Below are positions 1,882 through 3,656 of a stretch of 39,310 bases of DNA, piece after piece. The notes under the pieces are model-generated. The model saw only the letters and a program-made list of their open reading frames with translations, was not told where the DNA came from and made no database searches. Source of the DNA: Syntrophobacter sp. SbD2 (GTDB lineage Bacteria; Desulfobacterota; Binatia; UBA9968). The stretch spans positions 1-39,310 of the forward strand of contig CAMDBU010000041.1 of NCBI GenBank assembly GCA_945889495.1, read 5' to 3'. The translations under genes and the position numbers were made by a program. The stretch's first letter is position 1; each line of letters opens with the position of its first letter.

Positions 1882-2937
1882 CTATTTTCCGCCGAAAATC
1901 TCGTGAAAGGTCTTAGCGTAGCCTTCGAAGTTCTCAAACACTTCGTTGGGCGCGAAGGCAGGTTTGACGCCTTCAATAAAGCGCGGCTGTTCCGGCGGCG
2001 TATCGATGCGATCGGGGATGCGGTTCATGCCACGCACGAGCTCTTGGCCGCGCTTGGACAGCACGAAGTCGATAAACAGCTTCGCGGCATTGGGATGGGG
2101 AGCCTTGGCCGCGATGCTGACCGGATGGGTGTTGGCGAACACCGGATTTAAATAAATCCAGTCCACCGGCGCACCCGCCGGCTTCAACTGTTCGAACTGC
2201 GCCGAATAGGTGCTGAGCGAGCCTTTGTACTCCCCGGCGGCGACCAGCTGAGCGAGAATCGTCCGGCCGTTGCGCAAACCAACTTGCTTGGACAGTTCAC
2301 GCATGTAGGCCAGCCCCTTTTCATCGCCCATGGCCTTAACCATGGTGGCAAACCATTCATAGGCGCGGCTATCGAGACCGATGTTGCCCTTCCATTCCGG
2401 CTTCAATAAATCTTGATACGTTTTGGGAATGCTGGCGCGCGGCACCGTCCGGGTATTGAAACCGAAGGCGCCATAGTTGGTGTAGATCGACGTCCAAGTC
2501 GCCTGGGGATCTTTGTAACCGTCGCGATAGAACTTGCGCTCCGGCGAATCGTAACTCGCCAACAGGCCGCGCTTCTTGAGATTGTAGCCGTAGTAGCTGG
2601 TGCTCATCACCACATCCCAGAGCGGCCTGCCGGCGCGATTTTCGGTGAGGATGCGCTCCATCAACTGGGCGTCGGTAGCGCGGTAAAAGCTCGCCTCGAT
2701 CTTCGGATAGAGCTTCTGAAAGCCGTCGGTCAAGGTTTTGGTATCGCTGGCATTGAACGCCGCGTAGAAAACCAGCTTACCTTCCGCCTCGGCCAGCGAT
2801 TTTACGTCCTGCGCCGAAGCTGGAACCGCGATCAAGGCAAAATAAAGAATGCAAAGTGCAAAAGTCAAAATTGTCGGAGTCCGGAAATTTTGCCTTTTAC
2901 CTTTTGCATTTTGCCTTTTGCCTTGCGCCTCGCTCAC
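1882..2937 (-). CDS. Extracellular solute-binding protein (Fe(III)/AfuA-like family 1)
   Basis: A 351-residue periplasmic binding protein of the type-2 fold. After a signal peptide ending near VPASAQ it shows GKLVFYAAFNASD, a WDVVMSTS segment, LLKPEWKGNIGLD and HPNAAKLFIDFVLSKRGQELV, all typical of family-1 and ferric-type binding proteins. Many family members bind organic ligands, so iron is not implied. The start is a GTG at 2937 whose GTGA overlaps the stop of the upstream racemase-like gene by four bases, implying translational coupling. The unusual point is the N-terminus: both the basic n-region (about residues 6-17) and the hydrophobic core (about 22-36) are encoded by the two arms of a heptamer repeat hairpin. 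No permease or ATPase gene adjoins. Confidence 0.88.
   Translation of the reverse strand: MSEAQGKRQNAKGKRQNFRTPTILTFALCILYFALIAVPASAQDVKSLAEAEGKLVFYAAFNASDTKTLTDGFQKLYPKIEASFYRATDAQLMERILTENRAGRPLWDVVMSTSYYGYNLKKRGLLASYDSPERKFYRDGYKDPQATWTSIYTNYGAFGFNTRTVPRASIPKTYQDLLKPEWKGNIGLDSRAYEWFATMVKAMGDEKGLAYMRELSKQVGLRNGRTILAQLVAAGEYKGSLSTYSAQFEQLKPAGAPVDWIYLNPVFANTHPVSIAAKAPHPNAAKLFIDFVLSKRGQELVRGMNRIPDRIDTPPEQPRFIEGVKPAFAPNEVFENFEGYAKTFHEIFGGK
2836..2922. repeat. Heptamer-period hairpin repeat inside the SBP signal peptide
   Basis: Two 37-base arms, 2836-2872 (A-rich) and 2886-2922 (T-rich), are imperfect inverted copies separated by a 13-base loop. Each arm is five 7-base units of the kind TTTTGCC or its complement plus a terminal AATT. 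The element lies wholly within the coding sequence of the SBP at 1882-2937. Read in the gene's direction, the A-rich strand encodes K/R/Q/N residues and the T-rich strand encodes F/L/I/A/C residues. Confidence 0.8.
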
Positions 2938-3656
2938 GGCATCTCCGCCAACAACCGCCCATAACCCAGCAACGGTTCGTTCAAGTTCAAGATCTTTTTC
3001 GTCGCCCAGACCTGCGCCGGGATGCTCGATAGCACGGTGGTCTTCAAATCCTTTTCCAACATCTCGATCACCGGCAGGTTATGCCAGCCGGCGCCGAGCA
3101 TGTAGATGCCGTCGGCCTTGCCGGCTTCGAGAAAAGTCTTCTTGGCGAAGTTGTAAATCGCCTCGGGCGACAACTTGCCGGCATCCTTGAACGGCACCTC
3201 GATGCCCTCCATGGCTTTCACTTCGAAGCCGTCGTCCTGGAGAAATTTAGCGAAACGCTGGTTCATTTCGCCAGTGAAGTAAGTAATGCCGACCAATTTT
3301 TTCATGCCCAGGGCGCGAAACGCGTCCACCTGCGCGATGGTCGCCACGGTGACCGGGATTTTATATTTCTTGGTCAGCGAGTCGGCGATCTGCCGGTCCG
3401 CGCCATGGCCGCGCACCATGGTCGGCGGCGCGCCCATGATCATCACCACGTCAGCGCCGAGTTCGGCCAAGCGCGCGACTTTCTTCTCGGCGACGGTCAG
3501 TGCTTCTTGCAATTCTTTCTCATTGCCCGCCCGCACCCCGGCATGAGCTGGAATGAAGCCGACGCCCTCGGGCATGAGCTTGATAAAACTCTCCATCGAA
3601 CCGGGCCGGTAGGTTGGTTTAACAAGACCGACAATTCCGCGTGATCCGTAGTACAT
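2934..3656 (-). CDS. Asp/Glu racemase superfamily protein (maleate isomerase / arylmalonate decarboxylase-like), no cysteine
   Basis: A 240-residue protein with the layout of the Asp/Glu racemase superfamily (maleate cis-trans isomerase, arylmalonate decarboxylase, hydantoin racemase). It has an N-terminal GSRGIVGLVKPTY, a central ELGADVVMIMGAPPTMVRG at the first active-site loop, and GIYMLGAGWHNLPVIEMLE at the second. These enzymes use one or two cysteines at those loops; here both are Gly/Ala and the whole protein contains no cysteine. It may use different chemistry or bind ligand without catalysis. The ATG has GGAGAA upstream. It is the first gene of a minus-strand group and overlaps the SBP start by four bases, suggesting the two handle the same compound. 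Confidence 0.75.
   Translation of the reverse strand: MYYGSRGIVGLVKPTYRPGSMESFIKLMPEGVGFIPAHAGVRAGNEKELQEALTVAEKKVARLAELGADVVMIMGAPPTMVRGHGADRQIADSLTKKYKIPVTVATIAQVDAFRALGMKKLVGITYFTGEMNQRFAKFLQDDGFEVKAMEGIEVPFKDAGKLSPEAIYNFAKKTFLEAGKADGIYMLGAGWHNLPVIEMLEKDLKTTVLSSIPAQVWATKKILNLNEPLLGYGRLLAEMP

Follow-up and report, generated by a model that had tools for sequence, protein, structure and literature searches.

A hairpin of heptamer repeats encodes most of the predicted signal peptide of a solute-binding protein and may reflect recurrent overwriting of leaders by short tandem repeats

Can DNA of the kind that makes up intergenic repeats also serve as the coding sequence of a secretion signal? 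This question is raised by a gene for a solute-binding protein (SBP) on contig CAMDBU010000041.1 of Syntrophobacter sp. SbD2 (GenBank assembly GCA_945889495.1), of which positions 1 to 39,310 were analyzed in full and are referred to here as the window. The first codons of this gene run through an inverted repeat of 7-nt units, and the original prediction was that the repeat encodes an entire signal peptide and that intergenic repeats give rise to secretion signals in this way. Signal peptides tolerate many sequences. The DNA that feeds their turnover in nature is rarely observed directly; in the present case it can still be recognized, and one gene junction can be compared across species that carry different repeats. 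From these comparisons we consider it probable that the hairpin leader exemplifies a process that recurs in this lineage, whereby heptamer repeats overwrite leaders.

Results

Inverted heptamer repeat and the leader it encodes

The inverted repeat was found at positions 2833 to 2925, in frame at the 5′ end of the SBP coding sequence, with two arms of 46 nt each (2833 to 2878 and 2880 to 2925; 78% complementary) set back-to-back with 1 nt between them and built mostly from degenerate 7-nt units. The heptamer period that had been proposed was thereby confirmed, and the arms, described earlier as 37 bases, proved longer. Residues 5 to 35 of the 42-residue signal peptide are encoded by the repeat, residues 1 to 4 by the gene junction and residues 36 to 42 (IAVPASA) by unique sequence, so that most but not all of the signal peptide is of repeat origin. 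Based on the arm call and translation, the A-rich arm (2880 to 2925, minus strand) encodes residues 5 to 19 and part of residue 20, which form the n-region, while the T-rich arm (2833 to 2878, minus strand) encodes the rest of residue 20 and residues 21 to 35, which by hydropathy form most of the h-region. Translation of the unique sequence that follows (2812 to 2832, minus strand) provides the end of the h-region and the cleavage region; thus, the proposal that the two arms make the n-region and the hydrophobic core stands except for the end of the core. The complete leader reads VSEAQGKRQNAKGKRQNFRTPTILTFALCILYFALIAVPASA and is followed by QDVKSL.

This leader has the features of a Sec/signal peptidase I substrate: (i) a positive n-region, with a net charge of +5; and (ii) a hydrophobic core, ALCILYFALIAV, with a mean hydropathy of 2.83 over its best 12 residues. 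Both values are within the range of five orthologous leaders (hydropathy 2.32 to 3.07). By the A-X-A rule, small residues are expected at positions −3 and −1 before the mature N-terminus, and such residues were identified by eye between ASA and QDV, where the mature start lines up with that of the orthologues. Cleavage is therefore expected between ASA and Q. When the window was scanned with the heptamer pattern at up to 3 mismatches, five matches were detected, all inside the element, compared with 0.03 expected from shuffled sequences. The transcript of the hairpin was predicted to fold at −45.9 kcal/mol (z −4.65), with none of 200 shuffles as good, and a chance origin of the repeat pattern is rejected.

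The arithmetic of the unit provides a simple reason for why heptamers can be tolerated in coding leaders. Because 7 and 3 have no common factor, a heptamer repeat free of stop codons encodes the same cyclic peptide in all frames; by computation, 21 nt are enough for the 7-nt unit to be read in each of the three. The unit AAAAGGC yields KRQKAKG and its complement AFCLLPF; AAAATGC, which places a start codon in every frame, yields KMQNAKC and its complement AFCILHF. The idea that an A-rich arm and its T-rich complement form a ready-made n-region and h-region was borne out by these translations and extends to every reading frame. An open reading frame (ORF) alone is not special, since 8264 of the 16384 possible heptamers, close to one-half, lack stop codons on both strands; the special feature is the split of A-rich units into a basic and a hydrophobic peptide.

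Same junction in orthologues

Matches to the SBP at E ≤ 1e-30 were detected in 32 of the 145 genomes searched. Junctions with the upstream gene were read for the best 22 of 34 matches, the 12 others (≤40% identity) being dropped as probable paralogues, and 18 junctions were kept after removal of four duplicates (one of the 18, L075, was cut to 55 nt). Though the proteins are 60 to 84% identical to the SBP of the window over their aligned part, their leaders were found to be unrelated in sequence; the signal peptide differs where the repeat is absent, and none of the 22 junctions encodes the same signal peptide with nonrepetitive codons. A period-7 score of at least 20 was recorded at six of the 18 junctions (the window, G002, G001, G003, G017, and G007). 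Counting the window, the array is in the leader itself at 5 of 18 junctions (4 of the 17 others), and the units of the others differ from the AAAAGGC-like unit of the window: GTTTCGG-like in G002 and G003, AGTTTTT-like in G001, and GTTTCAG-like in G017. The background at the same score in the G000 sample was 1 of 3948 interior windows and 1 of 548 called gene starts. A scan of named genomes, from which the Syntrophobacter genome itself was possibly left out, returned four SBP loci, none with this leader and all in records titled Deltaproteobacteria bacterium metagenome-assembled genomes (MAGs).

Leaders of other exported proteins

Heptamer arrays were also detected in the leaders of two further types of exported protein, LptE and pseudopilin-like proteins, which were chosen after loci fetched by the repeat pattern had pointed to them; the 25 genomes of the family were taken as they came. 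Period-7 arrays are present in the leader-coding region at 10 of 23 loci of LptE (Pfam PF04390), namely, L227, L230, L232, L234, L235, L236, L239, L241, L243, and L244, which represent nine genomes and five genera. The L239 array was placed on a second analysis, and that of L243 was called on the first reading and left undecided by the second. At L243 (G024) AAAAGGC-like units are followed by TTTTGCC-like units, in the same order as in the SBP of the window, while at L236 (G009) AGGCAAC-like units precede GCCTATT-like units. The LptE start is within 4 nt of the leuS stop codon at 7 of the 10 array loci and 1 to 6 nt from it at the 13 repeat-free loci. Among 63 pseudopilin-like leaders (22 loci), selected by a cleavage motif, 17 carry arrays, mostly single-arm as judged by eye, and in every one of these the array stops no more than 8 nt from the codon for the cleavage glycine. 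Four neighboring type II secretion pseudopilin-like genes of G007 (L175:1-2014, the same as L265) each have a leader array, with units that differ from gene to gene; three of the four proteins match Pfam N_methyl, and the fourth matches nothing.

Interior coding DNA rarely carries such arrays. Within 75 Pfam-chosen loci (L222 to L296), arrays were detected in none of 510 interior windows of 173 nt and none of 838 of 113 nt, where interior denotes called genes without their first 240 and final 90 nt. The repeat pattern was also used to fetch 29 loci, among which some are the same place twice and beyond which further places exist; four of the 29 encode an exported protein whose leader is made by the repeat (L133, L147, L150, and L155). 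The L147 and L150 leaders are identical with those listed above as L227 and L244 for LptE and are counted once. Loci fetched in this manner from another family of the class (f6) belong to a YNCE-like beta-propeller protein (G122 and G070), MltA (G077), and LptE (G112). In 60 further stretches, arrays that overlap a long ORF do so at the N terminus (22), at the C terminus (15), or internally (8), and by eye many of the 22 are untranslated extensions of cytosolic genes. The clear leader cases there are the four genes of the pseudopilin cluster (L175), an LptE (L189), and a YNCE-like beta-propeller (L194). C-terminal tails made of heptamer arrays were also observed (L207, L208, L210, and L173). 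The recurrence anticipated for exported-protein starts in related genomes is thus seen for SBP, LptE, and pseudopilin-like leaders, but with unit sequences that mostly differ.

Cytosolic controls

Three cytosolic families were examined at loci where the N-terminal motif was found, i.e., 26 of 30 for MnmA-type proteins (a set that includes other enzymes sharing the MnmA ATP-binding motif), 18 of 20 for GatB, and 15 of 30 for KsgA, with the rest uncounted. Arrays within 170 nt upstream of this motif were detected at 13 of the 59 loci (five MnmA-type, six GatB, and two KsgA), and 11 of the 13 stop ahead of the nearest plausible start codon, such that arrays are nearly absent past the start in all three families. 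The six GatB and two KsgA arrays all stop ahead of the expected ATG, one of the GatB arrays by 3 nt, and those of the MnmA-type loci L277 and L281 stop 3 to 4 nt ahead of it. At L288, a protein that is not MnmA by its N terminus, the array lies just ahead of the possible starts. As a separate observation, L297 to L315 (gatB) and L277, L280, and L281 (mnmA) have arrays of various units whose ends coincide with the start codon or fall a short distance ahead of it.

Copies and arrays in the same genome

The genome that contains the window (5.64 Mb, 239 contigs) was searched with the element, and 34 matches were listed at E ≤ 10, of which several represent one site matched on both strands and the weakest are perhaps due to chance. 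In agreement with the repeat being dispersed, five other long copies (on C3, C15, C60, C189, and C232) were identified, all between genes, together with many half copies and single arms. The six long copies share the same order and shape (A-rich arm, spacer, T-rich arm) at a mean column identity of 68%. The end of an upstream ORF extends 27 nt into the C60 copy, and longer ORFs pass through the C15, C60, and C189 copies as N-terminal extensions; we take these extensions to be untranslated, given that a start of the usual kind for the protein is apparent downstream (by eye, from known N-termini). The spacer between the arms (2868 to 2888 in the window; also in C3, C15, C189, and C232) contains G+C-rich words such as TCGGA and CCGG and, flanked by A-rich and T-rich arms, somewhat resembles a bidirectional terminator.

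Period 7 was the most common short tandem period in an 839-kb sample that includes the window, with 10 arrays versus 0 to 2 for any of the other periods between 2 and 24 and none in a Markov control. At a looser threshold, 31 arrays of many different units were detected in this sample: 20 touch no called gene; seven, including that of the window, overlap one by 2 to 8 nt; and four are inside a called gene (L094, L095, L099, and L105). Of these, L099 is a second SBP of the genome (Pfam SBP_bac_1) with an AATCCAA-like array in its likely n-region, while at L105 the array lies ahead of an SBP whose leader could start after it, and the locus was therefore excluded from the count. The arrays thus share with short tandem heptamers the head-to-tail 7-nt units and the dispersed, mainly intergenic distribution; instead of the single fixed unit of the described cases, many degenerate units were found. 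With miniature inverted-repeat transposable elements (MITEs) and Rickettsia palindromic elements (RPEs), the hairpin shares the inverted repeat, the dispersal, and the in-frame fusion to an ORF.

SBP gene and its start codon

The SBP gene (1882 to 2937, minus strand; Pfam SBP_bac_6) encodes 351 aa from a GTG start, which, as originally described, overlaps the preceding gene, an arylmalonate-decarboxylase-like gene (2934 to 3656, minus strand; Pfam arylmalonate decarboxylase), by 4 nt. A Shine-Dalgarno-like GGAG (2943 to 2946, minus strand) was read by eye within the 3′ end of this upstream gene, 5 nt ahead of the GTG, and the arrangement GGAG-ATGCC-(A/G)TGA recurs in six orthologues (G001, G002, G003, G008, G017, and G020). 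Other junctions are organized differently: in G014, G015, and G016 a plain stop codon ends the upstream gene and the SBP start is further downstream, and in G005 an ATG that overlaps the stop is out of frame with the SBP, which starts further on. Based on the Shine-Dalgarno sequence inside the upstream gene, the 4-nt overlap, and the six orthologues arranged alike, the predicted GTG start is well supported.

A crude gene finder selected instead a TTG inside the repeat (2866 to 2868, minus strand). If this were the true start, the A-rich arm would be 5′ untranslated; we regard this as very improbable, as the TTG at 2868 has neither a Shine-Dalgarno sequence nor a basic n-region downstream of it and the upstream start arrangement is kept in the six orthologues. 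Most of the hydrophobic core would be repeat-encoded even then. Evidence for a start downstream of the repeat, which would have undone the original prediction, did not appear in the material examined. Gene callers may misplace starts at loci of this type. A promoter and terminator scan gave no match above the shuffle level, with one weak promoter-like match inside the element, and no Rfam match was obtained in the window at gathering scores.

Discussion

A model for these observations is that a heptamer hairpin settled at the junction of two tightly coupled genes and became the leader of the SBP; with the SBP start codon fixed in place by the stop codon of the gene before it, the repeat would be translated. 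Its A-rich arm would then supply the basic n-region and the T-rich complement most of the h-region, with the cleavage region and the mature protein kept. More generally, heptamer repeats of many units may build up in weakly selected DNA and mostly halt where strong selection begins, which would be the start codon in cytosolic genes and the cleavage site or h-region in exported genes, since a cleavable leader needs composition rather than a particular sequence. Weak selection on leader sequence would accordingly be the reason for arrays there, and repeats would suit leaders because their peptide is frame independent and an inverted A-rich unit gives a basic and then a hydrophobic segment. The simplest reading of the repeat-free orthologues, which have other leaders, is that the repeat replaced the leader of an already exported protein, and we infer that it took the place of an older leader and that repeat-coded leaders function in export. 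The original idea that intergenic repeats give rise to secretion signals is therefore retained insofar as repeat-coded leaders recur, but not as the birth of secretion: the comparisons suggest that intergenic-type repeats recurrently overwrite cleavable leaders in a turnover of signals.

Several observations weigh against this interpretation. Related genomes are nonindependent samples, and the choice of LptE and pseudopilins was guided by the repeat-first loci. A large share of the arrays lies between genes: 57 of 100 in the 60 further stretches touch no long ORF, and the 20 of 31 in the 839-kb sample are likewise intergenic. The pattern overlaps a called gene at 8 of the 29 repeat-first loci, mostly away from leaders. 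Some arrays lie within proteins, as at L185 and L190, at L094 (17196 to 17237, well inside a 318-aa ORF of G000), and at L095 (near the 3′ end of an ORF of G000). Among the SBP junctions, the G007 array is upstream of the ATG and not in the leader, and junction L065 (G015) scores 20 at period 8. At 3 of the 10 LptE loci (L230, L234, and L235), the start falls within the array or on its border. Of the cytosolic arrays, two at MnmA-type loci are less clean: that of L280 overlaps the ATG by 1 nt, and that of L272 stops before one ATG but would include 7 nt of coding sequence if an ATG 21 nt upstream is used; moreover, cytosolic genes offer less room for an array because the stretch from start to motif is short. 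Lastly, both export and the choice of start codon are predictions from sequence.

Alternative explanations were also considered. The hairpin could be a mobile element in its own right (MITE- or RPE-like), inserted as a complete unit and with a peptide content that is incidental. The likeness of the six long copies in order and overall shape is consistent with this possibility, which we consider a real but lesser one; local repeat growth fits better than one transposable unit because several unrelated heptamer units behave alike and half copies and single arms are common. That the hairpin is instead kept for control at the RNA level, such as attenuation of SBP translation or transcription in the operon, with coding as a by-product, would agree with the strong fold right after the start codon, but orthologous junctions carry other repeats or none, no terminator-like site was found at the element by the promoter and terminator scan, and the arrays of pseudopilin-like leaders are by eye mostly single-arm, leaving this explanation rather unlikely.

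A third view is that the leader is phase variable, with gain or loss of a 7-nt unit shifting the frame and toggling export. The junctions of the congeners G010 (L068) and G017 (L070) are one 7-nt unit apart, and the overlapping ATG is in frame with the SBP in G017 only; the GTG/ATG at this place in G010 stops after 33 to 34 codons, leaving only TTG starts in the SBP frame. This is a single pair, read from MAG consensus sequences, and degenerate arrays are presumably less prone to slippage, so we find phase variation improbable. Our preferred explanation remains the overwriting of leaders by heptamer repeats. A bolder version, which we think unlikely, is that inverted heptamer repeats are portable, frame-independent leader cassettes, in which an A-rich stop-free heptamer hairpin placed after a start codon would supply an n-region and an h-region that both work, leaders would keep being rewritten even in LptE and other core proteins of the envelope, and gain or loss of a single 7-nt unit could toggle export. 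In the overwriting process, selection seems to set in where the repeat ends, at the start codon of cytosolic genes and the cleavage region of exported ones. Repeat-coded leaders suggest one route to the fast turnover of secretion signals.

Partial precedents exist, to which these results add that such leaders recur in several genera and protein families, that arrays tend to respect a boundary, and that the encoded peptide does not depend on the frame. A literature search, mostly at the level of titles and abstracts and with few subscription journals covered, returned no report of heptamer repeats as signal peptides. RU-2 is described in the part of the source consulted as a single element, roughly 168 bp long, that has been reported for a few putative proteins (PMC2229807). 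It resembles the present case in that related proteins of other genera carry signal sequences unrelated to that of the RU-2-bearing protein (PMC2229807), and differs from it in that many heptamer units are involved here, which recur in LptE, pseudopilin-like, and SBP leaders and are frame independent. The RPEs (105 to 146 bp, many in conserved proteins; Ogata et al. 2000, as cited in the portion of PMC2229807 available to us) are likewise dispersed palindromic DNA that is translated in frame in real proteins and tolerated (PMC2229807); unlike these, the arrays described here cluster in leaders, in tails, and in a small number of internal stretches. The TAACTGA heptamers of Beggiatoaceae are, from the part of the report covered, direct repeats that are mostly intergenic and near starts, with a proposed regulatory role (MacGregor 2015, PMC4679880). 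They share with our arrays the intergenic heptamers near starts, with translated ones mainly at protein ends (PMC4679880), but have one fixed unit, and no signal peptides are reported in that part (PMC4679880). The heptamers GGGAATC and GGGGA(C/T)T of Xanthomonas and Nostoc, according to the sections consulted, are overrepresented in noncoding and underrepresented in coding regions (PMC4692102); these are similarly dispersed and enriched in noncoding DNA (PMC4692102), whereas their units are fixed and G-rich and have been proposed to form quadruplexes (PMC4692102).
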